24,484 nt of DNA, taken from a virus. The stretch is taken from IMG/VR virus record IMGVR_UViG_3300048590_001334, positions 1 through 24,484 of that record; one strand, written 5' to 3'. The notes under the pieces were generated by a model. The model searched no databases. It was not told where the DNA came from and saw only the letters and a list, made by a program, of their open reading frames with translations. A program made the translations under genes and the position numbers. This document shows, piece after piece, positions 1 to 24,193 of this stretch. Each line of letters starts with the position of its first letter. Within the stretch, counting starts at the first letter, position 1.

Positions 1-205
1 CCAAGGAGGCGGACCGCCGCGAGTCTTTGCCGCCACTTTTGGCAAGGCTAGCGACGCGGACGGCTGACGTCAGGTCGATCGCCCGGTCCTCCAGGCGGCG
101 GCCAAGTGTCGGGCGGTAGTGTTTGGGGAAGCTGCGTGTTCTTCCAAACACCATGACGGTCAATTGGTAGCTGTCGGCGAGGATCTTGGGGCTTCTAGCG
201 CTCAT
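1..205 (-). CDS. avd: DGR accessory variability determinant (Avd), N-terminal part, runs off left edge
   Basis: Reading leftward from ATG 205-203, 68 codons stay open to the window edge. The peptide has an F-P-K-x-Y-R-x-T-L-G-x-R-L-E-D-R-A-I-D-L pattern at about residues 26-45. This is the helix-1/helix-2 signature (FPxxxRxxLGxRI) of the Avd/23S-IVP four-helix-bundle family. Avd proteins form a pentameric barrel that binds the DGR reverse transcriptase and template RNA and are needed for mutagenic homing. The ATG lies inside the end of the preceding HTH gene (11-nt overlap ATGAGCGCTAG), which implies translational coupling. The plain four-helix-bundle family also occurs outside DGRs; the neighbouring FGE-type target gene makes the DGR role the better reading. 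The template repeat and reverse transcriptase are expected to the left. Confidence 0.75.
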   Translation of the reverse strand, partial: MSARSPKILADSYQLTVMVFGRTRSFPKHYRPTLGRRLEDRAIDLTSAVRVASLAKSGGKDSRRSASL

Positions 206-884
206 GGCGTCGCCCCCGGCCGTCGCGGTCCTGACCGCGCTCGATTTTCTTGATCAACGACGCAAACGCGGGCAGCACATCCCCCTCCAGAAAGGCGACG
301 TCGCTGGCCCAACGCAGCCTCGCATCAGGATCACTGTAAACGAGCGCCAACGCCGCGCCGATCAGCCCCCGGGAGCGGTCATAGTAGGCGCGCTTTTCTG
401 CGCCATACGAATAGAACCCGGAGCCGAGCTGCTCGAGAATCGCGCCCTGCAGATCACGCAGTCGATGGCCGTAGCGGAGCTTGTCGGCCTCCCCCCACAT
501 CGGCATCCGGAAAGCCTCCAGGCACAGCCGATAGCAGGCAAGCCCGTCGAGGTTCTTTCCAGAGGAGGCCCGCCTGGGGCGCGGCGGGCGTTCGCTGCCC
601 GTGGCCTCCGGCGACTTCGGAAGCGTTTCCGAAATTTCCGAAATTTCCGAAGTTTCGGAAATGGCCTGAGGCTCCCTTTCCGTGAGACCGCTGGCCTGCC
701 GAAAGGCCTCCAGCGATGCGAGGTCGACAAACCAGCGCTTGCCGACACGCAGCGCTTTGATCTGTCTGGCCTTGATGTAGTTGAGGACCATGCGCTCAGA
801 AACACCGAGAGATTTCGCGGCAGTATCGACGCTTACCTCGAGCTGGGATTGGGGCTGGCTGCGGCGTGGCATCGCGGGCGGCAT
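195..884 (-). CDS. Helix-turn-helix protein with a C-terminal Avd-like four-helix bundle (putative DGR accessory regulator)
   Basis: The product is 229 residues. Residues about 15-60 (VDTAAKSLGVSERMVLNYI, then a K-R-W-F-V wing and DLASLEAF) form a MerR/excisionase-type winged HTH. Residues about 76-110 are a low-complexity linker containing Ser-Glu-Ile tripeptide repeats, then a Pro/Arg-rich stretch. Residues about 112-218 are predicted helical: an amphipathic helix (YRLCLEAFRMP), a helix with an LRYGHRLRDLQGAIL core that parallels the R-x-x-L-G-x-R-L helix of Avd, a KRAYYDRSRGLIGAALALV helix, and a final helix ending FASLIKKIER. The size and helix order match Avd, so I infer an HTH-Avd fusion. 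It sits between the DGR target gene and a conventional avd gene, which its end overlaps by 11 nt. An AAGGA lies just upstream of the ATG with unusually short spacing. The HTH call is firm; the Avd homology of the C-terminus is inference. Confidence 0.75.
   Translation of the reverse strand: MPPAMPRRSQPQSQLEVSVDTAAKSLGVSERMVLNYIKARQIKALRVGKRWFVDLASLEAFRQASGLTEREPQAISETSEISEISETLPKSPEATGSERPPRPRRASSGKNLDGLACYRLCLEAFRMPMWGEADKLRYGHRLRDLQGAILEQLGSGFYSYGAEKRAYYDRSRGLIGAALALVYSDPDARLRWASDVAFLEGDVLPAFASLIKKIERGQDRDGRGRRHER
626..660. repeat. Intragenic array of TTTCCGAA/TTTCGGAA units
   Basis: Four 8-mers start at 626, 635, 644 and 653, with an exact 9-nt period. The first three read TTTCCGAA and the last TTTCGGAA on the plus strand. 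On the coding (minus) strand the period encodes Ser-Glu-Ile/Thr repeats in the linker of the HTH protein. The same units occur upstream at 963-1021 and 1093-1119. Confidence 0.85.
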
Positions 885-955
885 GATCCTTAATTGGGAG
901 CGCAGTGCACCCTAGCAGGGGACATGCCCGCTCAAAAGGGGGAAAATTCCTGGCT

Positions 956-1021
956 GGCATAATTTCCGAAATTTCGGAAATTTCCGAAGTTGCGGAAGTG
1001 ACGATTCCGAAGTTGCGGAAA
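956..1021. repeat. Array of alternating 9-bp palindromic units upstream of the HTH gene
   Basis: Nine-base units run head to tail: TTTCCGAAA (963), TTTCGGAAA (972), TTTCCGAAG (981), TTGCGGAAG (990), a 5-nt gap, ATTCCGAAG (1004) and TTGCGGAAA (1013). Adjacent units are inverted, so each pair is an 18-bp palindrome. Bases 956-988 are an exact copy of 1086-1118. The array lies 70-140 bp upstream of the HTH start, a plausible operator position. Binding by the HTH protein is inference. Confidence 0.85.
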
Positions 1022-1085
1022 TGCTGCCTGATGAAAGAATAAGCAATCTGAATTAAATCAACATGTTGCGTAAAGCTGCTGTTTC

Positions 1086-1119
1086 GGCATAATTTCCGAA
1101 ATTTCGGAAATTTCCGAAA
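1086..1119. repeat. Array of three alternating 9-bp units next to the DGR hairpin
   Basis: TTTCCGAAA (1093), TTTCGGAAA (1102) and TTTCCGAAA (1111) follow GGCATAA. Bases 1086-1118 match 956-988 without mismatch (33 bp). The array ends 8 bp from the hairpin stem at 1128. Similar half-sites (TTTCGG) also occur at 1082. Confidence 0.9.
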
Positions 1120-1127
1120 TGGAGCCG

Positions 1128-1147
1128 CTGGGGGCTAACGCCCCCAG
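1128..1147 (-). other. DGR-type target hairpin/cruciform (8-bp GC stem, 4-nt loop)
   Basis: On the plus strand CTGGGGGC-TAAC-GCCCCCAG is a perfect 8-bp stem with a 4-nt loop; on the target-gene strand the loop reads GTTA. It lies about 40 bp after the stop codon of the target gene. In the Bordetella phage BPP-1 DGR a hairpin of the same dimensions just 3' of the variable region is needed for efficient target recognition. No T-run follows on the minus strand, so it is not a canonical terminator. Confidence 0.7.
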
Positions 1148-1153
1148 ACCCCC

Positions 1154-1186
1154 AAACCAAGGACCAAGGTCCAAGAAACCAAGGAC
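1154..1186. repeat. 11-nt direct repeats between DGR target stop codon and hairpin
   Basis: AAACCAAGGAC occurs at 1154-1164 and 1176-1186 (22-nt period). The intervening bases contain GGACCAAGGTCC, a 5-bp stem with a 2-nt loop. Together they fill the 40-bp gap between the variable region and the hairpin. Confidence 0.7.
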
Positions 1187-1187
1187 T

Positions 1188-4100
1188 TTAGTGGGCATTG
1201 GAGAAGGCGCAGCGAAAGCCCACGGCGCTGCCGACGTTCGACGGCCCACTGCTCAGACCGGCGGCGAACACGCCGGCGCTCGTGCCAGCGCTCCAGGGGC
1301 CGCCGCGGAGCAGGGCATTGCCACTTGCGCTGCACCCATAATACTGACCGGCCCCGTTGGAGGAGGTCAGAGAGCCGCTTGGGCCAGCGACTAGCTTCTC
1401 CCAGTCGGTGACGTTGGCGTTGTTCCACTCGACCCATCCGGTGGTGTACCAGCTCGTCGTGTCGCACTGCGCATCCGTCCATTCCCAGACGTTGCCGGCG
1501 AGGTCCCAGATGGCATTGCCGTTGCTGAGGACGTGGGTGCGCATTTGCGATTTGTTGGCGCCACCAGCCGAATAGGCTGTGCTGTAGCCGTTGCCCGTGC
1601 CGCTATAGCCATAGTCGGTGCTGTTTCCGGCATAGGTACCAGGGCCACGCAGGGCACAGGAGTTGTTGCTGGCATCGGAGAGCGCCACAGTCAGCGTGCA
1701 GCTCGCAAGCGAGGGGTCCGCCACCGCGGCCAAGGCGCTGGCCGGAGAGTTGTCGGAGTGGCCGGTGGCAAGCTGAATGCCGGCGGCAGAGTCGATATCG
1801 TTGATGGCGGTGGCCTCGATGTTGCGGGCAATCGTCATCCACTCGCCCTCGTTGACGAGGTGGCCGCCGACCCGCTTGCAGGCGCTCATTGCCTCATACC
1901 AGGAGACAGAGACCCAGGGGGTGCCCGTGGCGGTCGAGACGGCCTGGCCGGTGGCGCCATCCTTCTTGGCCTCGTACTTCATCACGCAGAAGCTCTCTCG
2001 CGTGAAGCTGCTGTCGGCAGGTACAAGGATATAGCCCGTGGGGCAGGTGAGGCTGGCGGCCGGCAGATTGGTGAGCTGCGAGCCGTCGACGGCGGGCAGC
2101 TTGGCAGTGCCGTCGAGTTGGACGACTTTGTTGGCGGTCGTGCCGACATCCAGCGTGGCAGCCGTGCCAAGCCCGAGGCTGGTGCGCCCGGTGGCGGCGA
2201 CAAGACCCGTGGCACCGCCGTCCCATTTCATGCGGTCTGTGTAGGCGGTGTCCCAGTTGGCGGAGTTATCGGTCACGACGCTGTAGGTTCCGGCACCGGT
2301 GCGGGCCATGAGGCCGTTTGAGCCGAATTCGCCGTTCATCACGGCACCGGCGCTGTCGACCGTCGCTGTGGTGACGACGCTCGTGAGCTGCGAGCCGTCG
2401 ACGGCGGGCAGCTTGGCAGTGCCGTCGAGCTGCACGACCTTGTTGGCAGTGGTGCCGACGTCCAACGTGGCGGCCGTGCCGAGGCCCAGACTGGTGCGGG
2501 CGGTCGTCGCATTGAGGCCGCTGGCGCCGCCGTCCCACTGCAGGCGCTCGCTGTAGGCGGTGTTCCAGTTGCTGCTGCTGAGAGCAAGCCACGACGTCGT
2601 GCTGCCGTCGGTCGTGAGCACTTTGCCGGAGTTGCCGGTCTGTGCGGGCAGAAGATTCGTCAGAGCGCCGTCGGCCGTCGTCGCGCCGGTGCCGCCTTTG
2701 GCGACGGCCACGGCCGCACTGAGGTTGGCGGGGCTGAGGCTGGTAAGGGCCGAGCCGTCGACGGCTGGCAGCTTGCCCGTGCCATCGAGCTGCACCAGTT
2801 GATTGGCGGCGGTGCCGGCATCGAGCGTAGCCGATGTGCCGAGGCCGAGGCTCGTTCGGCCGGTGGCGGCGACGAGGCCGGCAGAGCCGCCGTCCCACTT
2901 GAGGCGGTCGGTGTGCGCCGTGTCCCAGTTGGTCGCGTTGAGAGCACTCCACGAAGCCGCCGTGCCGTCGGTCGAGAGCACCTTGCCGGAATTGCCGGTC
3001 TGGGCGGGCAGCAGGTTGGTGAGCGCTGCGCTGGCGCTGGCGGCCCCGGTGCCGCCGCGGGAGATCGAAAGCTGCGCCTCGGAGCTCATCACGCCGCTTC
3101 CGTCGTTGACGAGCACATGGGAAGCCGTGCCCGACGCCAGCTTGGCGCGGGCGATACCCGCGCCTGTCTTGATCTCCGAGTCGTCGATGCCCGTGATCGT
3201 GTTGGTGTCGGCATCGATCGACTTGTTGGTGAGCGTGTCGCTCGAGTTGGCCGTGGTCGCCGTCGCCCAGGACAAGACGCCCGAGCCGTTGGTGCTGAGC
3301 AGCTGGCCGGCGGTGCCGTCGGCCGCTGGTAGAGTCCAGATCAGGTTGCCGGCGATGGAGTCGGCGGCCTTGACGCCGACGTAGTTGTTCTCGAGCCCGT
3401 CACGCTCGGTAAAGCGCAGCTCGCCAGTTTGCCCGGCACCGCTGCCATAACCGCCGAGCGTCACGGCGGCCTGGAGGTCGGTGGTGAGCGAGCCGACCGG
3501 CAGGACGGTGGCGGCCGTGATGGTCGCCTGCTTGGCGTTGAGCTGGGCTTGCGGGTCAGAAGTCAGGCCCGCCAGATAATTGAAGTGCGTGTTGTCGACC
3601 GCTCCCGTGCCGATCTTGCTGGCGTCGATGTTGGCCGAAGCGCTGATGTCGGTGTCAGCGATGGTGCCGTCGGCGATGGTGGTCGACGTGACGTCGCCAG
3701 CGTTCAGCCCGCCGCTGGCAATGTCGTTCATGAGCTTGAAGCTGCCGGTGGCGTTGTCCCACTTGACGACCTTTTGATCGTTGCTGGCATCAAGAGCGTC
3801 GGTGAAGGCCTTGCCGCGGATCTTGGTGACCACCGTGGCATTCTGCGTGCCGGTGACGTCGCCGCTGAGGGTGCCGGAGAAGCTCTGCGCTTGTTTGATC
3901 GCGGTGATGTCGCCAGCGGCGTCGACTTCGACGAAGGCGCCGGTCGCTTTGATCACGCCGGGCGTATTGGCAGCGGCGGCCGGAAGAGTGGCCTTGAGGC
4001 GGCCGGCGCCGTCGAACGCCACCGTGCTGCCGTCGACCGGCACCCGGGCTGCCAGCGGGACGACAGCAAAGCGCTGCCTGGGATAGATGCGCGCGTTGGT

Positions 4101-4430
4101 CTGGTCGGTGATCTCGATATAGGCGGCCGTCTCAGCCGAGGGGAAAATCGTCGTGTAGTCGTCGACCGGGAGATCGAGAGTAAGCTGGAAAACTCCGTCC
4201 TGGAGGGTCACGGAGGGGGCGACGACCGGCTCGCCGAGCAGCGGACTGCCGCCGGTCTCGCTTTGGAAGAAATTCACGGCAAGATCGACCGGCCCCGCCA
4301 GCGGTGTACCGCTCGGATCAGTCAGGCGTCCGCCATAGGACAACGGGAATGGGCCGGCAAGAGCGGCCGGTGGCGCAAGGGCGAGCCACAGCCCGATCAG
4401 AGCCGAGGAAATCTGGTGGTGCTTGGGCAT
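1188..4430 (-). CDS. Secreted repetitive surface protein with C-terminal FGE/C-type-lectin DGR variable domain
   Basis: The product is 1080 residues from ATG 4430, preceded by GGGAG at 8-nt spacing; an alternative start 5 codons upstream lacks this. Residues 1-25 form a signal peptide (hydrophobic core, A-L-A cleavage site). Next is a beta-rich N-terminal domain (SYGGRLTDPSGTPLAGPVDL) seen in Bdellovibrio-type surface proteins. Residues about 150-790 are stalk-like, with tail-fibre-style repeats (GGTGA...LTNLLPAQTGNSGKVL, RTSLGLGTAATLD, KLPAVDGSQLT). Residues about 793-1080 form an FGE-sulfatase/C-type-lectin fold domain: CPTGYILVP, FCVMKYEA, EGEWMTIARNIEA, GNAIWDLAGNVWEW and a closing RGG-W...AGVFA...PSN...GFRCA. 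That ending is the hallmark of DGR-diversified FGE targets. It is probably displayed on the cell surface, where the variable face could bind ligands. Catalytic FGE cysteines are not evident, so a binding role is more likely than enzymatic. Confidence 0.85.
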   Translation of the reverse strand: MPKHHQISSALIGLWLALAPPAALAGPFPLSYGGRLTDPSGTPLAGPVDLAVNFFQSETGGSPLLGEPVVAPSVTLQDGVFQLTLDLPVDDYTTIFPSAETAAYIEITDQTNARIYPRQRFAVVPLAARVPVDGSTVAFDGAGRLKATLPAAAANTPGVIKATGAFVEVDAAGDITAIKQAQSFSGTLSGDVTGTQNATVVTKIRGKAFTDALDASNDQKVVKWDNATGSFKLMNDIASGGLNAGDVTSTTIADGTIADTDISASANIDASKIGTGAVDNTHFNYLAGLTSDPQAQLNAKQATITAATVLPVGSLTTDLQAAVTLGGYGSGAGQTGELRFTERDGLENNYVGVKAADSIAGNLIWTLPAADGTAGQLLSTNGSGVLSWATATTANSSDTLTNKSIDADTNTITGIDDSEIKTGAGIARAKLASGTASHVLVNDGSGVMSSEAQLSISRGGTGAASASAALTNLLPAQTGNSGKVLSTDGTAASWSALNATNWDTAHTDRLKWDGGSAGLVAATGRTSLGLGTSATLDAGTAANQLVQLDGTGKLPAVDGSALTSLSPANLSAAVAVAKGGTGATTADGALTNLLPAQTGNSGKVLTTDGSTTSWLALSSSNWNTAYSERLQWDGGASGLNATTARTSLGLGTAATLDVGTTANKVVQLDGTAKLPAVDGSQLTSVVTTATVDSAGAVMNGEFGSNGLMARTGAGTYSVVTDNSANWDTAYTDRMKWDGGATGLVAATGRTSLGLGTAATLDVGTTANKVVQLDGTAKLPAVDGSQLTNLPAASLTCPTGYILVPADSSFTRESFCVMKYEAKKDGATGQAVSTATGTPWVSVSWYEAMSACKRVGGHLVNEGEWMTIARNIEATAINDIDSAAGIQLATGHSDNSPASALAAVADPSLASCTLTVALSDASNNSCALRGPGTYAGNSTDYGYSGTGNGYSTAYSAGGANKSQMRTHVLSNGNAIWDLAGNVWEWTDAQCDTTSWYTTGWVEWNNANVTDWEKLVAGPSGSLTSSNGAGQYYGCSASGNALLRGGPWSAGTSAGVFAAGLSSGPSNVGSAVGFRCAFSNAH
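1191..1325 (-). other. Putative DGR variable region (VR)
   Basis: The last 45 or so codons of the target gene encode a conserved frame (RGG-W, AGVFA, L, PSN, GFRCA). It is interspersed with small residues in codons AGC, AGT, GGT, GGC and GCT at positions where FGE-type DGR templates usually carry AAC/AAT. This is what adenine-specific mutagenesis would leave. Exact VR limits cannot be set without the template repeat, which is not in the window. Confidence 0.65.
2071..2117. repeat. 47-bp direct repeat, copy 1, inside the target gene stalk
   Basis: Identical to 2383-2429. Both encode the K-L-P-A-V-D-G-S-Q-L-T segment of the stalk. A diverged third copy starts near 2742. The repeats are 312 bp apart, so the stalk grew by duplication of modules of this order of size. 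Confidence 0.85.
2383..2429. repeat. 47-bp direct repeat, copy 2, inside the target gene stalk
   Basis: Exact copy of 2071-2117; flanking sequence (RTSLGLGTAATLDVGT module) is also closely similar to the region around 2118-2200. Confidence 0.85.
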
Positions 4431-4956
4431 TCGGGCAACTCCCAACCGACATCGATTCCTCTAAGCGGCTTATAGGATGAGGTCGGAAAGATGCCTCAAA
4501 GTCTTTAGGGGTCATGCAGACCTAGATCAATGGACTGAATCTTAAGGATAATATTGGAGGCTTGATACGACGGCGGACGACGCCGTTTTGCCTGCTCTTG
4601 TGAAGCTCAAACCAAAGCTGTGTATGACGGCAACAGCGTCAATTATGGAGGTCTTTCATGCGCGAGAGGATGGTCCGAAGTCCAAATGCCATGGCGTGCT
4701 CCTCGGCTAGGCCTTGAGTTTACAGCAATTTCTAAAGAGGGACGGCAGACGGGGCTGACTGAGAGGGAGGGGCTTAGGGGCTGTGCCGCTATGCGTTGCG
4801 TTGGGCTCGACGAGTGGATGCGGAGGCGCGAGGAAGGCGAGCGTCTGACGGCGAGCTTTGTAAAATAGTCCCAAAAGGACAGCAGCTTACCAAAGCGCGG
4901 GTGCTTTACTTTGAGATAGTGGTTTCTTGTAGTAAAGTGTTCTAGGGGATTTGCCG
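4431..4956. other. Intergenic region between the DGR target and higB-type gene
   Basis: No gene is convincing here. On the minus strand a TTGAGG (4499-4494) and TATAAG (4474-4469) pair with a 19-nt spacer could serve the target gene. A 6-bp stem ACGGCG-GACGA-CGCCGT (4570-4586) followed by TTTG is a weak terminator-like element. A 19-codon ORF at 4658-4717 has a good Shine-Dalgarno (GGAGG, 6-nt spacing) but no recognisable product. A longer open frame at 4620-4868 has poor coding character. Confidence 0.5.
4904..4938 (+). promoter_or_regulatory. Candidate promoter and operator of the higBA-type module
   Basis: TTGAGA (4911-4916) and TAAAGT (4933-4938) are spaced 16 bp apart, 18 bp before the start codon. 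CTTTACT (4904-4910) and AGTAAAG (4931-4937) form a perfect 7-bp inverted repeat that brackets the -35 and overlaps the -10. This is a suitable position for autoregulation by the XRE antitoxin. Confidence 0.5.
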
Positions 4957-5316: not shown

Positions 5317-5322
5317 GGCGTT

Positions 5323-5676
5323 ATGGCGAAGGCGAAAGATCATCAGACGGGGGGTCTCACGCCGGAGCGGGTGGCGGCGTTTGAGTCTTACGACGACATT
5401 CGGCGCGAGCTTTTCAGCGACGAAGAGATCACCCGCCAAGACGCTGCTGTCGACGCGGAGCTTGCGATTCTGCGCGCCATGCAGGAGAGCATCTCCAAGG
5501 CGGTGGCGGGCTTTATGGCTCAGGAGAACATAGGCTTTAACGAGCTCACACGCCGCATGGAGACGAGCACGCGGCAGAGTGCGCGCATTCTCAAGGGTGA
5601 AGCCAACCTCACGCTTGCGACGATCGCCGAGCTGGCTGCCGTTATGGGTAAGAGGGCTCGTATCGTCTTTGAGTGA
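5323..5676 (+). CDS. higA: HigA-type XRE antitoxin
   Basis: The product is 117 residues from ATG 5323, six bases after the toxin stop. Residues about 45-110 contain the XRE helix-turn-helix (SKAVAGFMAQENIGFNELT, then TSTRQSARILKGE, NLTLATIAELAAVMG). This resembles the short HigA antitoxins paired with Gp49-like toxins. It would neutralise the toxin and repress the module through the inverted repeat at 4904-4937. The N-terminal 45 residues are acidic (SYDDIRRELFSDEEITRQ) and could be the toxin-binding segment. Confidence 0.85.
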   Translation: MAKAKDHQTGGLTPERVAAFESYDDIRRELFSDEEITRQDAAVDAELAILRAMQESISKAVAGFMAQENIGFNELTRRMETSTRQSARILKGEANLTLATIAELAAVMGKRARIVFE

Positions 5677-9486: not shown

Positions 9487-11076
9487 GTGCTTACGATCTA
9501 CTACGTGCCGCTTGGTGGCTCAGTCGATGAGATGAAGCACGTCTACCGGGAGCAGGAGGAGCGGCGGCATCCGGGCAAGATGCTGCCGCACCTGGACGAG
9601 CGGATGAACAAGGTGCGGGTGGTTCTCGAAAAGAATACCCCCTTTCGCTCGCTGATGCTGACGGCCGAAGATCGTAGCGTGGTCGTCATCGAAGGGCTCG
9701 ACAGCCTCAAGGTCGACAACGACGTCTTTGTCGAACTCTACGAGAAGCGCAGGAAAGACGGCGTTTACGTGCGGCTTCTGGTCGAAAACATTCTGCTCGA
9801 TCCCAAAGAGCAGGCGACCAACTCATTTTTCGGCGCCATCATGAGCACCCACCGCAAGCGGACGCTTCGAGTAAGGCGGGTGCCAAGCCTTGCCGAGGCC
9901 CACGGCAAGAAGTTTGTGGGCGACATGCAGCGCGAGAGGCGAGAGGGCGCAACCCTGGAGGCCTTGGCAAAGAAGTACAACGTCTCCCAGAGCGCTGCCC
10001 ATCGCTACACGAGAGGCTGCCGGCGGCGCCAGGCGCCGCGGAGTGACGAGTGCGAGCCGGTCGCCTCGCTTGCGAGGCTTGGCGCCCGCGCCGAGACGCC
10101 CGAAGGACGGCTCGAGCAGCTTATCGAGCTTTTTCTGTCCGGCCAAAGAAAGCCGTCCACCGCCAAGCTCTACCGGACGCATCTTGCCACCTACCGCAGC
10201 TTTGCGGCCAGCGTGCTCGAAAGCCCCGTCGACTGTCTCGACAAGTTTACGCTCGAGAGCGCCGTTGCCTTCAAGCAGTACCGAACCGAGCTTGGCAAGC
10301 AGCCGGCCACCATCGCCAGCGAGCTGAAGGCCGTCAAAGCCTTCATGCAGTTTTGCTTTGTCGAAGAGGAAATCCCAAAAAATCCTCTTCTGCGGCTTAA
10401 AACCCCCAAAGTCGAGCGCAAGATCCAAACCGAGGCCCTCACAAGAGAGGAGACCGCCAAGGTCATCAACACCGCGCAGGAAATTCTCAAGTCAACGCCG
10501 CCGCTCAACGTCTCGCAGCGCTGGAAGGCCCACCGCGACCTTTTGGCCGTCTACCTCCTGGCCGGCGTCGGCATGCGCCACAGCGGGCTTCTGTCGCTCA
10601 GAAAATGCGATCTTGTCGAGACACGCCGCGGAAAAAGCCTCGCCATCGACAGCAAAGCCAACGCCAATCGCTACACGGTGGGCGTCTCAAAGCCAGTCTC
10701 CGACATGGTCGAAGCCTATATCGATCGCTACTTTGTCGACGCACCCCCCGAAGCCTACCTCTTCTGCGCCTCGCTCGACGACAAGAGTGCCCCCATGACG
10801 ATTGCGGGAAGCTGTCGCCGCATCAGCATTCTTTTCGACAAGGCCGGCATCACGCCGCTTGCTGCCGGGGGAAGCCAGAGAAGAGCTCACAGCCTTAGAG
10901 TCTCCTGGGCCAAGTTTGCCTACGAGATCGGCACGGATATTCGTAAAATTCAGCACAAGATGAATCACGGGGATGTCGAGCAGACCTACGCCTATCTAAA
11001 AATCGACGACGGCGAGGTCGCCATCGACTGGCTGCCGACTGTCCGCCTGCAAACCTCTAGCGGAGCCAGGCTTTGA
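9487..11076 (+). CDS. Tyrosine recombinase (integrase) with a degenerate serine-recombinase-like N-terminal half
   Basis: The product is 529 residues from GTG 9487 (AGTAGAGG 6 nt upstream). Residues about 205-300 form a SAM-like core-binding domain (KPSTAKLYRTHLATYRSFA). Residues about 305-500 form the catalytic domain with R354 (GMRHSG), H458-x-x-R461 (HSLR), H484 (KMNHGD) and the nucleophile at Y491 or Y493, so it should be active. Residues 1-180 are atypical: strand-helix patterns VVVIEGLDSLK...FVELYEKRRKDGVYVRLLVENI, a long basic helix, then an HTH (GATLEALAKKYNVSQSAAHRYTRG). These parallel the resolvase core, E-helix and C-terminal HTH, but lack the catalytic Ser motif. The stop overlaps the next gene start (TTGA), so it is coupled to the packaging operon. 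Confidence 0.85.
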   Translation: MLTIYYVPLGGSVDEMKHVYREQEERRHPGKMLPHLDERMNKVRVVLEKNTPFRSLMLTAEDRSVVVIEGLDSLKVDNDVFVELYEKRRKDGVYVRLLVENILLDPKEQATNSFFGAIMSTHRKRTLRVRRVPSLAEAHGKKFVGDMQRERREGATLEALAKKYNVSQSAAHRYTRGCRRRQAPRSDECEPVASLARLGARAETPEGRLEQLIELFLSGQRKPSTAKLYRTHLATYRSFAASVLESPVDCLDKFTLESAVAFKQYRTELGKQPATIASELKAVKAFMQFCFVEEEIPKNPLLRLKTPKVERKIQTEALTREETAKVINTAQEILKSTPPLNVSQRWKAHRDLLAVYLLAGVGMRHSGLLSLRKCDLVETRRGKSLAIDSKANANRYTVGVSKPVSDMVEAYIDRYFVDAPPEAYLFCASLDDKSAPMTIAGSCRRISILFDKAGITPLAAGGSQRRAHSLRVSWAKFAYEIGTDIRKIQHKMNHGDVEQTYAYLKIDDGEVAIDWLPTVRLQTSSGARL

Positions 11077-11369
11077 AGGAAGATCCGAGAGGAGGAGCAC
11101 TTGAGGCCGAGCAGATCAGGCTTACCAAGGTGAGGGCCGACAAGCTCGAGCTCGAGCTGCTCGAAAAAGAGCGAGAGCTTGTGCCAGTCGACGAGGTGAA
11201 AAAGCTCTGGAAGGCGGCCGTCATGGCTGCCAAGGCCAGGCTTCTTTCGATTCCGCCGTCTTTGGCGCCCACGCTGGCTCTCCTTGGCGAGGCGTCCGAG
11301 GTCGAGGAGGTGCTCACTCGGGCCATCGACGACGCCCTCGGCGAGCTGTCCAGGGGAGAAGTCATTTGA
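11073..11369 (+). CDS. Phage terminase small subunit
   Basis: The product is 98 residues from TTG 11073, overlapping the integrase stop as TTGA. The long charged helix EQIRLTKVRADKLELELLEKERELVPVDEV followed by KLWKAAVMAAKARLLSIP is typical of Nu1-like small terminase C-terminal regions, which oligomerise and contact the large subunit. No clear N-terminal DNA-binding HTH is present, so the protein is short for a lambda gpNu1 (181 residues). It directly precedes the large subunit with a TTGA overlap. Confidence 0.75.
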   Translation: MKEDPRGGALEAEQIRLTKVRADKLELELLEKERELVPVDEVKKLWKAAVMAAKARLLSIPPSLAPTLALLGEASEVEEVLTRAIDDALGELSRGEVI

Positions 11370-13210
11370 GGGCCGAAGGGGAGCTGCTTTCTGTCTTTCG
11401 CGAAGCCTTTGCGCCGCCGCCCAGGCTTTCCATCTCGGATTGGGCCGAGCGCTACCGCGTGCTTTCGGGCGAGGCCTCGGCCTCGCCTGGCCGCTGGCGC
11501 ACCGATGCTGTGCCTTATCTGAGAGGCATCATGGAGGCCGTCAAGGCGCCCGAGGTAAAAGAGGTCATCGTCAAGGCCGCAGCCCAGGTCGGAAAGACCG
11601 AGTTTCTCCTCAACTGCATCGGCTACTACACCCACCAGGAGCCAAGCCCCCAGCTGGTGCTTCTGCCAACGCTTGAGCTGGCTGAGATCTGGAGCAAAGA
11701 CCGGCTTGCCACCATGATTCGCGACGCAAAAGTCCTTGCCAAGATCGTCGAAGACCCCAGGGCCAAGGACTCCTCCAACACCATGCTGCACAAGCGCTTT
11801 GCCGGCGGTCACATCTCGCTGGCCGGCGCCAACTCGCCGGCCTCGCTCTCGTCACGGCCGATCAGGATCGTCTATGCCGACGAGGTCGACCGGATGCCCG
11901 ACTCGGCCGGCTCTGAGGGAAGCCCGCTGGACCTGGCCCGCAAGCGGTCGTCGACCTTCTACAACCGAAAATTCATCGCCGCCAGCTCGCCCTCGCGGGA
12001 GCGCCGGACCTCCAAGATAAACCGCCTCTACGAGGCCTCAAGACGGCACGTCTTCGAGCTGCCCTGTCCCCACTGCAAGGCCTTTATCGTCCTCGAGTGG
12101 GAGGGGGTCGTCTGGGAGGACGCCAGGACTGAGACGGCCTTCTACCGCTGCCAGGAGTGCGCAGGCGCCATTCACGACGGCCACAAGCTTGTGGCGCTCA
12201 AAGCCGGCCGCTGGCGCTGTCTTGACCCAGAGAGGCGGGGGACAAGTGTCGGCTTTCACGTCTCGGCCCTCTACTCGCCGTGGGTCTCCTTTGGCGAGAC
12301 GGCAGGCGAGTACATGGCGGCGCAAAGAGACACCGAGAAGATGAAGGTCTTCTACAACACCTTTCTCGGCGAGCCCTACGAGGACGAGGTCGACACGGTG
12401 GCCGGCAGTCTGCTTTCTGCCAGAGCCGAAGACTACGCGGCCGAGGTGCCGGCAGGAGTCAGGGTGCTTGTCCTCGGAGTCGACGTCCAAGACGACCGGC
12501 TCGAGGCCCACGTCATCGGCTACGGCGAAGACTGGGAGGCCTGGGTCATCGGCTATTATGTCTTTTGGGGGGACGTCGCCACAGACAGCCCCTGGGCTCA
12601 GCTTGACGAGCTTAGGGCAAAAGAGTTTCGCCACGAGTGGGGCTTTCCGGTCCGCGTCGTGGCAACCGCCGTCGACGCGGGCGACAACACCAAGATCGTC
12701 TACGACTACGTGCGCGGCAAGACCGGCCAGAGGGTCTTTGCCATAAAAGGTATGCGCGGCACGGGAAGGCCAGTCGTCGGTGCGCCGACCAGGCGCAAAA
12801 GCCCCTCTGACGGGCGCGAGGTGGTGCTTTATCCGCTTGGCGTCGACGAGGGGAAGACTCTCCTCTACCAGAGGCTCAAGCTTTCAGACCCAGGCCCCGG
12901 CTACATACATTTCCCCGTGGCGCTTTCTGGTGATTACTATAAACAGCTTACCTCAGAACGCGTGAAGATCACTTACCAAAATGGCCACCCCGTCAAGGTG
13001 TGGGAGCTGCCGCGGCACCGTCGCAACGAAGCTCTCGACACGGCCGTCTACGCGCACGCGGCCGCCGTCATCCTCAACCCGCTTTTTCGCGAGATCACCC
13101 AGAGGATGGAGCGCCTGAGAGACGCCCACGGCAAGGCGAGCGAGAAAAAAAAGGTCCTCCTCAAGAAGCGGCCAAGTGGCGTCGGCTTTGTGAACGCCTG
13201 GAGAAACTAG
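11366..13210 (+). CDS. Phage terminase large subunit, lambda GpA type
   Basis: The product is 614 residues from TTG 11366 (TTGA overlap). The order matches the GpA family: an adaptor segment (LSISDWAERYR, GRWRTDAVPYLRGIM); ATPase Walker A at about residues 73-79 (AQVGKTE) and Walker B at about 168-174 (IVYADEVDR); coupling motif near IAASSPS; a Cys4 zinc ribbon (C234, C237, C262, C265); then the nuclease domain starting at VLVLGVDVQDDRLE (about 357-370), with VDAGDN further on. It drives DNA translocation into proheads and cuts the concatemer. Full length for the family. Confidence 0.95.
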   Translation: MRAEGELLSVFREAFAPPPRLSISDWAERYRVLSGEASASPGRWRTDAVPYLRGIMEAVKAPEVKEVIVKAAAQVGKTEFLLNCIGYYTHQEPSPQLVLLPTLELAEIWSKDRLATMIRDAKVLAKIVEDPRAKDSSNTMLHKRFAGGHISLAGANSPASLSSRPIRIVYADEVDRMPDSAGSEGSPLDLARKRSSTFYNRKFIAASSPSRERRTSKINRLYEASRRHVFELPCPHCKAFIVLEWEGVVWEDARTETAFYRCQECAGAIHDGHKLVALKAGRWRCLDPERRGTSVGFHVSALYSPWVSFGETAGEYMAAQRDTEKMKVFYNTFLGEPYEDEVDTVAGSLLSARAEDYAAEVPAGVRVLVLGVDVQDDRLEAHVIGYGEDWEAWVIGYYVFWGDVATDSPWAQLDELRAKEFRHEWGFPVRVVATAVDAGDNTKIVYDYVRGKTGQRVFAIKGMRGTGRPVVGAPTRRKSPSDGREVVLYPLGVDEGKTLLYQRLKLSDPGPGYIHFPVALSGDYYKQLTSERVKITYQNGHPVKVWELPRHRRNEALDTAVYAHAAAVILNPLFREITQRMERLRDAHGKASEKKKVLLKKRPSGVGFVNAWRN

Positions 13211-13473: not shown

Positions 13474-14949
13474 GTGGGCTGGTTTGCCAGAGTCTTTCTC
13501 GGGCGCAAAGACAAGGTTCAAAAAAGGGTTTTTGACGCCGCCAAGACCTCCCGGCTGCAGGCGGCAGGCTGGGGGGCTGACACCCCCTACGACAAAGACA
13601 TCCTCGCCTCGCTGTCTCGTCTTCGGGGCCGCTCGCGCGATCTGGCGCAAAACAACGACTACGTGAAGCGCTTTCTCGCGCTCCTCAACACGCACGTGGT
13701 CGGCCCCAAGGGCATTCAGCTTAGGTGCTCGTTTAAGGTGCAGGGCGAAATCGACCACCAGGTGAACGACGAGATCGAGGAGCAGTTTCGACGTTGGGGG
13801 AAAAAGGGCGTCTGCGACGTTACCGGGAGGCTTTCCTGGCGGGATGTTCAGCGCCTTGTGCTCCAGGGGGTGGCGCGCGACGGCGAGGCCTTCATTCGCT
13901 TTGTCTACGGCGAGCGCTACCCCTACGGTCTGGCGCTGCAGGTGATCGACCCGGCCCTGCTCGACGAGACGCTTTCCGACAGCAAGGGCGAGAGGCTCAT
14001 CTCGATGGGAGTCGAGCTCGACGAGTGGGGAAAGCCCACGGCCTACTACTTCAAGGCCGGCCGCGACACGGGCGAGGTGGTGGCAGGCCGGCATTACCGG
14101 CGCATCCCGGCCGGCGAGATCCTGCACGTTTTCATGCAGGACATGCCGCAACAAACCCGCGGCGTGCCGTGGATCCACACGGCCATGAGTCGCCTCAAGA
14201 TGCTTGGCGGCTACGAGGAGGCCGAGCTGGTCGCAGCCCGGGTGGCAAGCTCCAAGATGGGCTTTTTCAAGCAGACCGGCGGCTCTAGCTATGTTGGCGA
14301 CGACCTCAAGCCCGACGAGGAGGGGAGCGTCATCCAGAAGGCCGAGCCGGGGAGCTTTGAGCTGCTGCCCGAGGGAGTCGAGTTTGAGCCCTGGAACCCC
14401 GAGCACCCGGCCGGAAACTTCGGCCCCTTTGTGAAGGCCTGTTTGCGCGGCATCTCGGCCGGTCTTGGCATCTCCTACAACTCGCTAGCCAACGACGTCG
14501 AAAGCGTCAGCTACTCGTCGCTTCGCTCGAGTCTTCTCGAGGAGCGTGACCACTACGTGTGCCTGCAAAACTGGCTCGTTGAAAACCTGTGCGAGGCCGT
14601 CTACGCGAAGTGGTTGACGGGAGCGGTGCTTTCCAAGAAATTCACGAAAATCACGCCGGTCAACATGGACCGCTTTGACTCGCCGCAGTGGGTCGCCAGG
14701 CGCTGGGCCTGGGTCGACCCGCTCAAAGACACCAAGGCCAACATCCTGGCGCTCGAGGCCGGGCTCAAATCGCGCACAGAGATCATCTCCGAGCAGGGGA
14801 GGTCACTGGACGACGTCTTTTCAGAAATCGTAGCCGAGAAGGCCAAGGCCGAAAAATTCGGTCTGAGCTTTGGAGAGGGCAGTGAAGAAGATAGCGGAGA
14901 CGAGGGTGAGGCAGAGGCTACTGAGTCAGACGAGCAGTATCTCTCATAG
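13474..14949 (+). CDS. Phage portal protein, lambda family
   Basis: The product is 491 residues from GTG 13474. Features of the lambda gpB-type portal include SLSRLRGRSRDLAQNNDYVKR near the N-terminus, LLNTHVVGPKGI, the DPALLDE core, EILHVFMQDMPQQTRGVPW (residues about 210-230), and the late GISAGLGISYNSLANDVESVSYSSLRSSLLEER segment that forms part of the tunnel. The C-terminus is a very acidic tail (GSEEDSGDEGEAEATESDE). It forms the dodecameric gate through which the terminase pumps DNA. The next gene begins inside its last 68 bp. Confidence 0.95.
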   Translation: MGWFARVFLGRKDKVQKRVFDAAKTSRLQAAGWGADTPYDKDILASLSRLRGRSRDLAQNNDYVKRFLALLNTHVVGPKGIQLRCSFKVQGEIDHQVNDEIEEQFRRWGKKGVCDVTGRLSWRDVQRLVLQGVARDGEAFIRFVYGERYPYGLALQVIDPALLDETLSDSKGERLISMGVELDEWGKPTAYYFKAGRDTGEVVAGRHYRRIPAGEILHVFMQDMPQQTRGVPWIHTAMSRLKMLGGYEEAELVAARVASSKMGFFKQTGGSSYVGDDLKPDEEGSVIQKAEPGSFELLPEGVEFEPWNPEHPAGNFGPFVKACLRGISAGLGISYNSLANDVESVSYSSLRSSLLEERDHYVCLQNWLVENLCEAVYAKWLTGAVLSKKFTKITPVNMDRFDSPQWVARRWAWVDPLKDTKANILALEAGLKSRTEIISEQGRSLDDVFSEIVAEKAKAEKFGLSFGEGSEEDSGDEGEAEATESDEQYLS

Positions 14950-16783
14950 GCTCTCTGACCTTGCCTCGGGCGAGATCAACGACGAGGCCCGCACGGTCGT
15001 TTTGACGTTTTCCTCGGAAGCCCCCGTCGACCGGTGGTTTGGAAGAGAGGTTCTCGACCACGGGGCGCGGGCCGTGCGCCTTGCGAGGATCAACCGCGGC
15101 GGAGCTTTTCTCTTAAACCACGACCGTAATCAGCAGATCGGAGTCGTGCTGGAGGCCACCGTCGAGGGCCGGCGCGGCAAGGCGCTTGTGAAATTTTCCA
15201 GAAACCAGCTCGGCGAGGAAGCCTTCCAGGACGTCAAAGACGGCATCAAAAGTAACGTGTCGGTCTCCTACCGCTACCACGAGCTAAAGCTCGAGGAGCA
15301 AAAAAGCGAGGGACCTGACACCTACCGCGTCACCGACTGGGAGCCGCTCGAGATCTCGCTCGAGGCCGTGCCGGCCGACCCGACAGTCGGAGTCGGCCGG
15401 GGCAGTCACTTTGAAGACATCAACCAGCTGGGCGGCCCCCAAGAGGAGAGCGCCGCAGAGCCAAAGAGGGAGGACGTTGCAGTGGTGGTGGCAGCAGGCG
15501 CCGAAGACGAACGCAAGCGGGCGCTCGAGATCATCTCGCTTGGAGACAGGTTTCAAAAACAAGATCTGGCGCGCGCGGCCCTGATGGAAGGCCTCTCGGT
15601 CGACGAGTTCTCGCGAAAGCTCCTCTTGGCAATGGAGTCACGCCCTGAGCTGCCGGCGGCAGCCCCCACCTCGGCGCGCGAGAACATCGGTCTCAGCCGC
15701 AACGAGACCAAGCGGTTTTCATTTCTGAAAGCCATGCGCGCTGCCCTCAACAACGACTGGCGGGGGGCCGAGTTTGAGCGCGAGGTGAGTGAGGCCGCAG
15801 CGGCGAAGTTTAAGCGTGAGACCAGCGGCTTTCTCGTGCCCTCGGATGTGATGTTTGCCTCGCGCTTTGAGACGACGACAGCGCCGGGGTCTGCCGGCTC
15901 GCTCGTTGCCACCAATATCCCGCCTGGCAGCTTTATCGAGGCGCTCCGGGCGCGGCTTGTGATCCGCCAGCTTGGCGCCAAGATCCTCTCGGGCCTTGAA
16001 GGCAACGTGACTCTGCCGAGGATGGCCGGCGGCGCCAAGGCCTTTTGGGTGGCAGAGACCAAGGACGTCGAAGAGCAGCCCTTTAAGACCGACCAGGTGC
16101 CGCTTTCGCCAAAGTCCGTGGGTGCCTTCACCGATATCTCTCGCCGTCTCATCCTGCAAAGCTCCATTGACGTCGAAGAGGTCGTGAGAGAAGACCTCGC
16201 CACGGCCGTGGCCAGCGCCATCGACCTGGCAGCCATCGCCGGCAGCGGCAAGGACAACCAGCCGCGAGGCATTCTCTTGACCGAGGGCGTCACCAGTGTG
16301 CCCTTAATGGATTTTGACTTTAACGCCGTCGTCATGCTCGAGACGGCGATTGCCAAGGCCAACGCCAACTTTGGCTCGCTTGCCTATCTCACAAACCCCA
16401 GGGTCTCTGGCGTCTTGAAAACGACTCTCGTCAACGAGAACAGCAGCACCTTTATCTGGGGAAGCGGACCCGCCGGCCGTGGCATCGTCAACGGCTACCC
16501 GGCCGAGGTCTCCACCATCGTCCCCGACAACTTAAACGGCGACAAGAGCGCCATGATCTTTGGCAACTGGGCCGATCTGGTGATCGGCGAGTGGGGGGTG
16601 CTCGACGTCCAGGTGAACCCCTATCTGAAGGGCACCTCGGGTACAGTGCGCATCCGAGTCATTCAAGACGTCGACATCGCCATCCGCCACCCCGAGTCGT
16701 TTGCCTTCTACGACACCATCAAGCCACCCGCGGGGCCAGAGCCAAGTCCTGAGCGCGGGCGGACGCGGCGGGGGGAGAGTTGA
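14882..16783 (+). CDS. Prohead protease-major capsid protein fusion
   Basis: The product is 633 residues from GTG 14882, preceded by GGAGAGG; TTG 14870 is an alternative. The N-terminal 190 or so residues resemble S78-type prohead protease: H80 in FLLNHDRNQQIG, a Ser near residue 127 (KSNVSVSYRYHE) and a following EISLEAVPADPTVGVGR strand. After a helical, Glu/Ala-rich delta-like scaffold (about 185-280) comes an HK97-fold capsid domain: ETSGFLVPSDVM, GSLVATNIPPGSFIEALRAR, VTLPRM, FTDISRRLILQSS, AAIAGSGKDNQPRGIL, and a final RVIQDVDIAIRHPESFAFY. A single polypeptide thus supplies protease, scaffold and shell, presumably self-cleaving. It overlaps the portal gene by 68 bp. Confidence 0.92.
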   Translation: MKKIAETRVRQRLLSQTSSISHRLSDLASGEINDEARTVVLTFSSEAPVDRWFGREVLDHGARAVRLARINRGGAFLLNHDRNQQIGVVLEATVEGRRGKALVKFSRNQLGEEAFQDVKDGIKSNVSVSYRYHELKLEEQKSEGPDTYRVTDWEPLEISLEAVPADPTVGVGRGSHFEDINQLGGPQEESAAEPKREDVAVVVAAGAEDERKRALEIISLGDRFQKQDLARAALMEGLSVDEFSRKLLLAMESRPELPAAAPTSARENIGLSRNETKRFSFLKAMRAALNNDWRGAEFEREVSEAAAAKFKRETSGFLVPSDVMFASRFETTTAPGSAGSLVATNIPPGSFIEALRARLVIRQLGAKILSGLEGNVTLPRMAGGAKAFWVAETKDVEEQPFKTDQVPLSPKSVGAFTDISRRLILQSSIDVEEVVREDLATAVASAIDLAAIAGSGKDNQPRGILLTEGVTSVPLMDFDFNAVVMLETAIAKANANFGSLAYLTNPRVSGVLKTTLVNENSSTFIWGSGPAGRGIVNGYPAEVSTIVPDNLNGDKSAMIFGNWADLVIGEWGVLDVQVNPYLKGTSGTVRIRVIQDVDIAIRHPESFAFYDTIKPPAGPEPSPERGRTRRGES

Positions 16784-17627: not shown

Positions 17628-17632
17628 AGACG

Positions 17633-20677: not shown

Positions 20678-21240
20678 CCAGCCTTCTGCCGAAAAATTCG
20701 ACGCCGCTTGAGAGGACGCTCGAGGATGTTGCAGGAGAGAGGCTCGAGGGCCTCTCATTTGACTTTGCCTCGCTTTTTGACCCCGACACCTGCCCGCCGG
20801 CCTTTCTGCCGTATCTGGCTTGGGAGCGGGGGGTTGAGCTGTGGGACGAGGACTTTGTTGGGGTGGAGAGCGAAGACGACCTGACGAGGCGGCGCCGTGA
20901 GATCATCTCTCGCTTTGCCGCGATCAGGCGGCTGCGCGGCACCCTGGCTGCGATCGACTTGGCCATGGAGACCCTTGGCGTCAAGGCAAGAATCCGCGAG
21001 TGGTGGGACCACCCCGAGCCGAGGGAGCCCTACACCTTCAAAGTCATCCTACTGAGCAAGGACAACCGCCCCCTTGGCGAGGCTGAAAGACGCCGCATCC
21101 TGCGCGTTATCGAGTCGCTAAAGCCCCTGCGTGCCCGCTTTGACCTCGACGTCATGTTTGAGGCCGAGGCCACAGTCGGGGCAGCGATGTTTGCGCGGGT
21201 GACTCGCATCAAGCGTTTTGCCGCCGTCGTGGGGCGTTGA
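20674..21240 (+). CDS. I: Tail protein I (baseplate wedge)
   Basis: The product is 188 residues from GTG 20674 (GTGA overlap). The N-terminal STPLERTLEDVAG and PAFLPYLAWERGVELWDEDF are signature segments of the P2 gpI family (L-P-x-L-A-W-x-x-x-x-x-x-W), followed by RREIISRFAAIRRLRGTLAAID, which sets the tail-fibre attachment fold. It binds J and carries the fibre. Confidence 0.92.
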   Translation: MTSLLPKNSTPLERTLEDVAGERLEGLSFDFASLFDPDTCPPAFLPYLAWERGVELWDEDFVGVESEDDLTRRRREIISRFAAIRRLRGTLAAIDLAMETLGVKARIREWWDHPEPREPYTFKVILLSKDNRPLGEAERRRILRVIESLKPLRARFDLDVMFEAEATVGAAMFARVTRIKRFAAVVGR

Positions 21241-22361
21241 TGGAGCGCCCGAGGATTACAAGACGCGGGCTCGAGGCCCTGGCCGAGGCCGAGGCCAGGG
21301 GTAAGAGGCTTCGCTTTGTCGGCATTGAGCTGGGAAAGGCCTCCTACGATCCAGACGGCTCCGAAGCAGCGCTCAAGGAAAAAGTCGAGGGCTCGGCGCT
21401 TGCCGACTCAAACCGGGTCTCTGGAAACCGCGTCCATCTCACAGCCGAGTTTCGCTCTGGGAGAGAAGCCTACGACGTCGGCGAGATGGGCATTGTGGCA
21501 AGCCTCGAGGGGGGTGAGGCGCCCCTTCTCTTTGCCGTGCTCTCCAAGAGAGGCGAGATTCTCGCCAAGCGGATACCGTCGGAAGATCTGCTTTTTGGCA
21601 TCGACCTCATTCTCGAAGAGATCCCCGACTCGCTCATTGCAGTCGATGGGGTCGGAGAGCGTCTAAACCTCTCCTTGGCAAGGGAGCTTGCTGCAGTGGC
21701 TCTCTCTCTCACTCAAGGCCAGCGCCACACGCTCGAGCTGATGCGAGAGCTGACTGCCACCCGAGGGGAATTTTTGACCTTCAAGGAGGTCGCCAAGGCT
21801 TCGCTTGCGGCTCTGCGGGCTGACCTTGAGACCCAAAAGGCCGAGACTGCGAGGCTTGTTCAGGGGGTGCGAACTGAACTCGAGGCCGTGAAGGCCGAGG
21901 CTTTGGGTGAGCTTGCCCGCTACAAAGGGCGGCTTGGAGCGCTCCTCGGCTGGCCTGCCGGGGCGGGGGCTCAAGCTCTCCTGCAGGAGATCGAGCTCGA
22001 TTTGTCGTCTCCAGTCTCCCATACGGGGCTTATCGAGTACCAGTTTACCAAGAAGACGGGAGGGAGCCTCAAGGTCGGGCTCAGAGACTTCTGGCTTCTA
22101 CGCGCGGGAGGGACTTTTCCGCGCGAGCTGACGCTTGCGATCTATCTCGACAACGTCGAGCGACGCTTTCGCCTGGAAACAGCTCTCTACAGCGAGAAGT
22201 ACCTCTATCTGAGCGCCGGGCTTGTCGAGTTTGAGTTCTCCGAGGCAGAGCTTGCCTCTCCAGGCCCAAAGGAAGGGGTTATGAGTCTAGAAATCCTGGG
22301 GGATGCCCAGGCTCTCTTTTCGCAGGCGGCGCGAAAGCCTGCCATTTTCTTTATGGAGTAG
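21240..22361 (+). CDS. H: Tail fibre / collar protein H-like
   Basis: The product is 373 residues from ATG 21240 (TGATG overlap; a TTG three bases earlier is also possible). The N-terminus (ITRRGLEALAEAEARGKRL, then FVGIELGKASYDPDGS) is a weak form of the phage tail-collar fibre domain that docks on gpI. Residues about 150-240 form a heptad-rich coiled coil (LRADLETQKAETARLVQGVRTELEAVKAE). The C-terminal 120 residues are beta-rich and receptor-binding-like, with no recognised family and no DGR variable-region motif. The fibre is short compared with P2 gpH (669), and no tail-fibre chaperone gene follows. Confidence 0.75.
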   Translation: MERPRITRRGLEALAEAEARGKRLRFVGIELGKASYDPDGSEAALKEKVEGSALADSNRVSGNRVHLTAEFRSGREAYDVGEMGIVASLEGGEAPLLFAVLSKRGEILAKRIPSEDLLFGIDLILEEIPDSLIAVDGVGERLNLSLARELAAVALSLTQGQRHTLELMRELTATRGEFLTFKEVAKASLAALRADLETQKAETARLVQGVRTELEAVKAEALGELARYKGRLGALLGWPAGAGAQALLQEIELDLSSPVSHTGLIEYQFTKKTGGSLKVGLRDFWLLRAGGTFPRELTLAIYLDNVERRFRLETALYSEKYLYLSAGLVEFEFSEAELASPGPKEGVMSLEILGDAQALFSQAARKPAIFFME

Positions 22362-22365
22362 GGAC

Positions 22366-22518
22366 GTGACTCTCGAAGAGCAGATAGCGCTCCTGGTCGA
22401 CGAGACGAGAAGGCTGCAAGAGCTGATGGCAGGCGAGGTTAGAGCCCTGCAGACGAAAGTCACCGAGCAGGAAGCCAGGATCACGGCACTCGAACAGGGG
22501 AGGTCGCCAGGTGGCTGA
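22366..22518 (+). CDS. Small coiled-coil protein between fibre and sheath
   Basis: The product is 50 residues from GTG 22366, starting 5 nt after the fibre stop and overlapping the sheath gene by 8 nt. It is almost entirely a heptad-repeat helix (EEQIALLVDETRRLQELMAG; LQTKVTEQEARITALEQ). No family recognised. The close packing suggests a real gene, perhaps a fibre accessory or chaperone. Confidence 0.55.
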   Translation: MTLEEQIALLVDETRRLQELMAGEVRALQTKVTEQEARITALEQGRSPGG

Positions 22519-23674: not shown

Positions 23675-24193
23675 GTGACGCTGCTAAACAATCTCCCGCA
23701 GAAGCTCACGCATTTTACGCTCTTTGTCGACGGCCGCGGCTACGCCGGCATGGTCGACGAGATCGTCCTGCCAAAGCTCACCTACAAGGTCGAAGACTAC
23801 AGGGCCGGCGGCATGGATCTTCCCATCCCAATCGAGATGGGCATGGAGAAGCTCGAGGCTGAGTTTACGCTTGGCGAGTACGACCGCTTTGTGATCCAGC
23901 AGCTTGGCTTTCAAGAGGGCGGCCCCATTGCCCTTCACGTGCGAGGCGCCCTCAAGCGCCACACGCTGGCTGTTCCCGTGAGCTGCCACATGCGGGGCGT
24001 CATCACCGAGATCGACTTTGGCGCCTGGAAGGCTGGCGAGACGACCGCCATGAAGTTTCGTCTCTACTGCACCTACTACCGCTACGCGCATGCCGAAGAG
24101 GTGCTCATCGAGATCGACGCCGACAACATGGTGCGCCGCATCAACGGCGTCGACCAACTGGCAGCCGTCAAGGCTGCGCTGCTTAGAGGATAA
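23675..24193 (+). CDS. FII: Tail tube protein FII
   Basis: The product is 172 residues from GTG 23675, abutting the sheath stop. P2 FII features include an N-terminal LTHFTLFVDGRGYAGMVDEIVLPKL, the YRAGGMDLPIPIEMGMEKLEAEFTLG core and a late KFRLYCTYYRYAHAEEVLIEIDADN. It forms the hexameric inner tube. Length equals P2 FII (172). Confidence 0.96.
   Translation: MTLLNNLPQKLTHFTLFVDGRGYAGMVDEIVLPKLTYKVEDYRAGGMDLPIPIEMGMEKLEAEFTLGEYDRFVIQQLGFQEGGPIALHVRGALKRHTLAVPVSCHMRGVITEIDFGAWKAGETTAMKFRLYCTYYRYAHAEEVLIEIDADNMVRRINGVDQLAAVKAALLRG

Follow-up and report, generated by a model that had tools for sequence, protein, structure and literature searches.

How does a diversity-generating retroelement (DGR) find the gene that it rewrites, and whose surface carries the product when the element travels in a virus? 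Both questions are raised by the left end of IMG/VR virus record IMGVR_UViG_3300048590_001334, analyzed here in its entirety (24,484 bases; the window). An initial annotation of the same letters had proposed a partial DGR with a secreted target of FGE type. The minus-strand cassette in the window comprises a target gene, its variable repeat (VR), a hairpin, a gene for a 229-amino-acid (aa) protein, and a truncated avd; the record ends inside avd with no sequence left of base 1, and the reverse transcriptase (RT) and template repeat (TR), neither of which is in the window, were read from sibling contigs. We consider it likely, taking the reading as a whole, that this is an active DGR carried as phage cargo, that its target is a fiber displayed by the lysogen, and that a helix-turn-helix (HTH) protein, HTH-Avd, acts on an array of short repeats (iterons) beside the VR. 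The parts of the cassette are as follows.

1188..4445, minus strand: DGR target gene, 1085 aa (ATG at 4427; listed TTG start at 4445)
1201..1317, minus strand: VR, 117 bp, aligned to the sibling TR
1152..1183, minus strand: TTGG repeats with 5-8 nt spacing, between VR and hairpin (enrichment count)
1128..1147, minus strand: hairpin/cruciform element after the target stop, 8-bp GC-rich stem, loop GTTA
195..884, minus strand: HTH-Avd gene, 229 aa, with an HTH_17/BldC/Xis-type winged helix (residues 16-65), a linker, and an Avd/S23-fold four-helix bundle (residues 112-223)
2..205, minus strand: avd, truncated by the contig end after its first 68 codons; N-terminus the same as in the full sibling Avd

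Siblings were found by IMG/VR searches with the 229-aa protein and with the target tip. Their identity to the window runs from 99.99% (G001) through 92.6% over the DGR (G002 and G003) to about 88% (G004 and G005), and three of them (G002, G003, and G004) extend beyond the window end to encode a full Avd (125 aa), an RT (325 aa), and a TR downstream of the RT. An RT and an adenine-biased template had been predicted just beyond base 1, with their absence from the next 5 kb as the contrary outcome; both are present there on the sibling contigs, and the Avd-type peptide noted at the left edge (open reading frame [ORF] 205..2) corresponds to the first 68 residues of the 125-aa Avd. The full sibling Avd, the accessory protein expected of a DGR, matched PHROG phrog_3206 “Avd protein of DGR” (1.1e-16), NCBIfam DivGenRetAVD (1.3e-12; 48 bits, below the 80-bit cut-off), and Pfam bAvd (8e-9; 36.3 bits, just below the 40-bit cut-off). 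The sibling RT matched RVT_1 (PF00078; 3.3e-17) and phrog_1423 (2e-72), carries the motifs IGNLTSQ and YMDD, is 32% identical to BPP-1 Brt over 88%, and, as a DGR-type RT, adjoins the TR. The resulting order, VR-(array)-hth-avd-avd-RT-TR, differs from the VR-avd-TR-RT order of the BPP-1 DGR (mtd-avd-TR-brt), which shares the Avd, adenine-specific TR/VR changes, a hairpin with an 8-bp stem after the VR, and residence in a temperate tailed phage but has no HTH-Avd gene annotated. A search of window positions 1-4445 for DNA similarity to plasmids found none.

Aligned over 117 bp with the TR of G002, the window VR was changed at 14 of 22 template adenines and at one other position near the end, which is to say essentially at template adenines alone. 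This sibling TR is the near-repeat of 1191-1325 for which the initial annotation had asked, and the VR falls inside that range; three non-A sites differ between the TRs of G002 and G004, and each VR matches its own TR. In the strain comparison proposed for A-site variation, G004 and G005 have 69 differences over a 15.2-kb overlap, 12 of them in the VR, and 12/12 of those at template adenines, with two scattered single differences and 55 in the last ~1.1 kb making up the rest. Because the VR differences between these two phages are all at template adenines, the DGR appears to be currently active, and the VR/TR pattern is, as far as alignment can tell, that of recent mutagenic homing. Parts and adenine-specific VR variation together identify the window cassette as belonging to a real, complete, and by this pattern currently active DGR, in which Avd and RT would copy the TR with adenine mutagenesis for writing into the last ~117 bp of the fiber gene. 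As a separate matter, the 55 differences at the contig end are confined to G004 positions 20000-21164, the remaining 15-kb overlap with G005 being nearly identical.

After the target stop, where a hairpin of DGR dimensions had been reported, lies a hairpin whose 8-bp stem is perfect and whose loop has 4 nt (CTGGGGGC-GTTA-GCCCCCAG); the loop of the siblings is GTA, and a single-strand fold of 1095-1200 gave z = -2.9. A chance hairpin was considered and rejected. Hairpins of phage DGRs are GC-rich, have a strict GRNA loop, and lie 4-34 nt from the VR (PMC3240598); the stem in the window is of that kind, but the loop is GTTA or GTA rather than GRNA and the distance to the VR is 53 nt. TTGG occurs between VR and hairpin 5 times in the window versus 0.6 expected, and over 19 loci 59 times versus 12.9 expected (4.6-fold), in the same place in many of them. 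Rfam gave no match, and no tRNA was found.

Absent from the initial annotation were the gene for the 229-aa protein (195-884) and a set of three iteron clusters. The N-terminal domain of HTH-Avd matched HTH_17 (PF12728; 8.4e-9), superposed on BldC (6ama) with Z 8.2 over 53/54 residues, as expected of a MerR-like winged-HTH fold, and was 36% identical to Pukovnik Xis (4j2n). BldC and Xis comprise hardly anything beyond the winged helix, whereas HTH-Avd fuses the same fold to a four-helix bundle within a DGR. That bundle, modeled by AlphaFold2 (AF2) with pLDDT near 90, had as its top structural matches 2rld (Z 12.4), 8ub8_C (12.3), 2gsc (12.0), and 4dwl (11.7); it agreed with S23/Avd proteins at a root mean square deviation (rmsd) of 1.9-2.4 Å over ~100 residues, that is, in the Avd fold, and superposed on both the Avd of a DGR ribonucleoprotein (8ub8) and bAvd (4dwl) with rmsd ~2 Å. 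HTH-Avd stands beside Avd and not in its place, each cassette having a separate, ordinary Avd.

Relatives of this protein accompany DGRs in cellular genome collections from two phyla, designated A (58 genomes; the phylum of the nearest chromosomal cousins) and B (369 genomes). The HTH-Avd profile alone, with the RT not used, retrieved full-length relatives from phylum B, and at 16 of the 20 loci so fetched HTH-Avd, Avd, and RT were directly adjacent in that order; among the other four, L255 had Avd but no RT match, and L254, L256, and L261 had neither. Conversely, among 127 loci fetched by RT similarity, strong HTH-Avd profile matches were confined to this group. RTs linked to HTH-Avd formed one clade (SH-aLRT 100) in which the phage RTs were nested in phylum A rows (98), in a quick tree made without bootstrap. 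The closest RTs in genome collections were 58-63% identical and came from lake metagenome-assembled genomes titled “proteobacterium”. Two such loci (L026 and L027), with the order target, hth, avd, RT, TR, are regarded as chromosomal because they lie among scpA/scpB/rluB-type genes; over 113 bp, their TR/VR pairs differ at 10-11 adenines and at one further position, and comparable pairs in the same gene order were found at most further loci. The chromosomal DGRs (L026, L027, L031, L199-L201, and L242-L260) thus resemble that of the window in having HTH-Avd, FGE-type targets where examined, the same order in most, and mostly the same iterons; they differ in that their RTs are at most 63% identical to the phage copy and in that they lie on chromosomes or lack a demonstrated phage location, the window copy being phage cargo.

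HTH-Avd had no match in 50,697 phage records, and a search of IMG/VR beyond these phages returned the same four contigs only. A 2023 survey names Avd, HRDC, and MSL as DGR accessory proteins, and literature searches for a DGR with an excisionase, Oligoflexia, or an HTH accessory gave nothing relevant, with a 2018 survey (PMC5758913) not covered and a prior mention therefore possible. HTH-Avd, a winged helix fused to an Avd-fold bundle, is apparently an undescribed DGR component. The DGR class as such is already known; it is the phage-borne cellular-type target and the pairing of HTH-Avd with an array that look new.

The array consists of TTC(N1-2)GAA iterons, located by repeat scan and without assigned strand:

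1093..1121: iteron cluster 1, TTC(N1-2)GAA with 9-nt spacing
963..1023: iteron cluster 2, in the stretch from the hairpin to the start codon of HTH-Avd
616..663: iteron cluster 3, within hth-avd, whose linker ETSEISEISETLPKS it encodes

Most loci with HTH-Avd have such an array in the interval bounded by the VR and the HTH-Avd linker. TTC(N1-2)GAA was counted at 147 sites in 12.9 kb of array region and at 127 in 203 kb outside it at these loci, an 18-fold enrichment, with spacings of 9-11, 20-23, and 30-33 nt, or ~10-nt phasing; the pattern had been chosen from the window and some relatives, which are therefore not independent tests of it, whereas the later-fetched phylum B loci are. One locus, L199, has CGGAAA repeats in place of the iterons. 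In another, L243, the hth-avd reading frame on the minus strand opens with twelve perfect 10-nt repeats (CCAGCCCAAG). BldC molecules attach head-to-tail to direct repeats of 9 bp (PMC5859096), and because this mode of binding fits the 9-10-nt spacing of the array, we infer that HTH-Avd most likely binds the ~10-nt-phased array just downstream of the VR as a head-to-tail filament.

Once there, HTH-Avd may act as a tether that keeps the retrohoming complex at the correct VR, or else as a regulator of the hth-avd/avd/RT operon. That it is purely an autoregulator, with the array as operator for transcription of hth-avd, avd, and RT and no role in targeting, comes close to an even chance in our estimation: BldC-like proteins are transcription factors (PMC5859096), and array sites are found both within hth-avd and upstream of it. 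An Avd-fold bundle, however, suggests contact with the DGR complex, and two loci sit poorly with control of transcription alone. At L200, array and hth-avd remain with the target though avd-RT is on the other strand; at L028, hth-avd, avd, RT, and TR are all present but there is neither an adjacent VR nor an array. Each is a single case, and together they incline us toward a link of HTH-Avd with the VR. Under the stronger form of such a link, HTH-Avd would be a sequence-specific targeting subunit whose winged helix coats the array while its bundle docks the complex of Avd, RT, and template, so that array and TR/VR homology together choose the target and the phage gives its host a hypervariable adhesin; we put this forward tentatively, as possible rather than probable. 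How DGRs find their targets is only partly understood, and a DNA-binding Avd-like protein with an array by the VR makes the question directly testable; the pair could also let DGR mutagenesis be steered to chosen genes.

The second question, whose surface is diversified, turns on the target. Its 1085 residues comprise a signal-peptide-like N-terminus (putative signal peptide MPKHHQISSALIGLWLALAPPAALA|GPFP), an N-domain of ~120 aa, a repetitive shaft, and a C-terminal FGE-sulfatase-type tip. The FGE-type ending recognized in the initial annotation holds: PF03781 scored 24.8 bits against a cut-off of 23.3, and the protein ends in RGGPW...AGVFA...PSN...GFRCAF as quoted. The C-type-lectin/FGE fold at the VR is assigned from sequence, the AF2 model of the tip (7 sequences) having a pLDDT of only 32. 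The tip protein had no similarity to proteins of phages and plasmids, and a solved-structure search with the window target gave nothing meaningful. Of the 58 genomes in the phylum of the cousins, 11 have the N-domain, as against 5 of 114 in a second phylum; it is present in 24 copies in G007, 36 in G008, 28 in G009, and 47 in G032. Many copies in these four genomes start long ORFs, some of more than 9,000 codons, and so mark a very large family of surface fibers. At one locus in G009 (L268), a fiber gene with a similar N-terminus has a VR-like end that is partly matching and decayed, with the array absent nearby, which is too little to serve as proof.

The target thus looks host-type, and because its leader is signal-peptide-like and its N-domain common in the bacterial group of the nearest chromosomal relatives, we infer that the lysogen most probably exports the fiber and displays it at its surface. 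In overall form it recalls the mosaic adhesive trimeric (MAT) fibers of Bdellovibrio, surface proteins of ~1000 aa with a constant N-domain, a shaft, and varied adhesive tips, one of which has a C-type-lectin fold most like phage Mtd; the study in question describes no DGR for them (PMC10769870). The window target, although similar in architecture, matched no MAT structure in the solved-structure search; a sibling-phage fiber, that of G012, did match MAT bd2133 (8ond; 2.2e-7).

An ordinary phage DGR, whose target would be a receptor-binding part of the virion switching tropism as Mtd does in BPP-1, is to our mind unlikely here. The cassette does lie in a phage, phage DGRs usually target receptor-binding proteins, and the tip is of the FGE/C-type-lectin type found in many DGR targets. 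But whereas BPP-1 targets a tail-tip protein beside the tail genes, the window target lies far from the tail module and is encoded on the other strand, and that module has a fiber of its own; the target has a signal-peptide-like leader, while the phage DGR targets of a published survey have none (PMC6199706); and its N-domain belongs to a paralogous family of cellular genomes, chromosomal orthologues existing as well. The DGR would, on the reading that we favor, diversify a bacterial surface adhesin and not a virion tail fiber. A phage-borne DGR with such an apparently secreted, cellular-type target departs from the no-signal-peptide pattern and would point to a kind of lysogenic conversion, the phage providing its host with variable surface recognition. 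The initial annotation had called the target “cell-surface, not phage” and the process host-level diversification; display on the bacterial cell is indeed probable, presumably by the lysogen, but the cassette is phage-encoded and sits inside a tailed-phage genome with phage genes on both sides.

It is very unlikely, we think, that the array is an unrelated low-complexity or mobile repeat whose nearness to the DGR is incidental. One window cluster does fall within a coding region as a 9-nt repeat (SEISEISE), but divergent loci from two phyla, with differing surrounding sequence, have the same core with ~10-nt phasing in the stretch from VR to HTH-Avd, and the sibling phages without a DGR have no iteron cluster.

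Several observations weigh against the favored reading. The case as a whole is sequence-based, with RT and TR seen in siblings and not in the window, and the signal peptide was judged by eye alone. The array is absent from the basal loci L257, L258, and L260 as well as from L028. Kinship of the HTH-Avd bundle with Avd is drawn from its top-ranked structural matches being S23/Avd proteins, and helical bundles can reach Z near 12 without kinship, a pectin methylesterase inhibitor scoring 11.2; profile-profile comparison of HTH-Avd with Avd (hhalign) was negative at a probability of 0.3%, and Pfam bAvd gave no match. Because sequence similarity to Avd is not detectable, the domain is named Avd-fold and not Avd. 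The phage, lastly, has 61% GC versus 54% in the nearest chromosomal cousins.

The location of the cassette follows from what surrounds it. Genes for integrase, terminase, portal, head, baseplate, tail fiber, and contractile sheath proteins, the complement of a P2-type temperate tailed phage, occupy the right two thirds of the window:

9487..11076, plus strand: tyrosine recombinase/integrase (sibling protein PF00589, 1.5e-15; phrog_1)
11366..13210, plus strand: terminase large subunit (phrog_15, 8.7e-235)
13474..16783, plus strand: portal and major head protein/protease (phage protein-family matches)
21237..22361, plus strand: the phage's own tail-fiber protein, remote from the DGR target (phrog_3737, 1.8e-27)
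22511..24193, plus strand: tail sheath and the next tail/connector gene (phage protein-family matches)

On the other side of the DGR, siblings carry toxin-antitoxin (TA)-type genes and encode a patatin, a GH108 endolysin, and a PriCT_1 protein. ParA-like and primase-like genes connect this endolysin/TA arm with the tail module in contigs G017 and G019, a junction that places both flanks of the DGR in one phage genome, and the linkage is kept in three lineages. Eight related phage contigs lack an RT, though several are fragments that do not span the slot. One that does span it is G012, with 94% identity over 19.4 kb and 97% over the other arm; it has no RT, and its slot (L178:8611-13170) holds instead a 1519-aa secreted-type fiber whose N-domain is 41% identical to that of the target. 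The slot of G016 (L180:8958-13969) holds McrB/McrC-like genes and a DNA methylase. Because both flanks are phage genes and close phage relatives fill the slot with other cargo, the cassette is, by this gene content, cargo in an accessory slot of a temperate P2-type tailed phage. A cellular DGR on a host chromosome flanking a prophage, to which the chromosomal relatives L026 and L027 and the integrase between cassette and structural genes might point, was considered and rejected as highly improbable, given that G017 and G019 have the far-side GH108 endolysin, patatin, and TA genes joined to the tail module and that these arms enclose different cargo in G012 and G016.

A TR-like stretch forms the end of contig G018. 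Window positions 4951-8506, which separate the DGR from the integrase, hold several TA-type genes (a Gp49/HTH pair, a Phd/YefM antitoxin, and genes for proteins that are PIN-like by eye) that are shuffled among siblings. ParA-like and PriCT/primase-like genes lie by the tail module, together with an integrase, at L017:16033-17055 and at positions 14090-19314 of G017, pointing to a possible phage-plasmid lifestyle.

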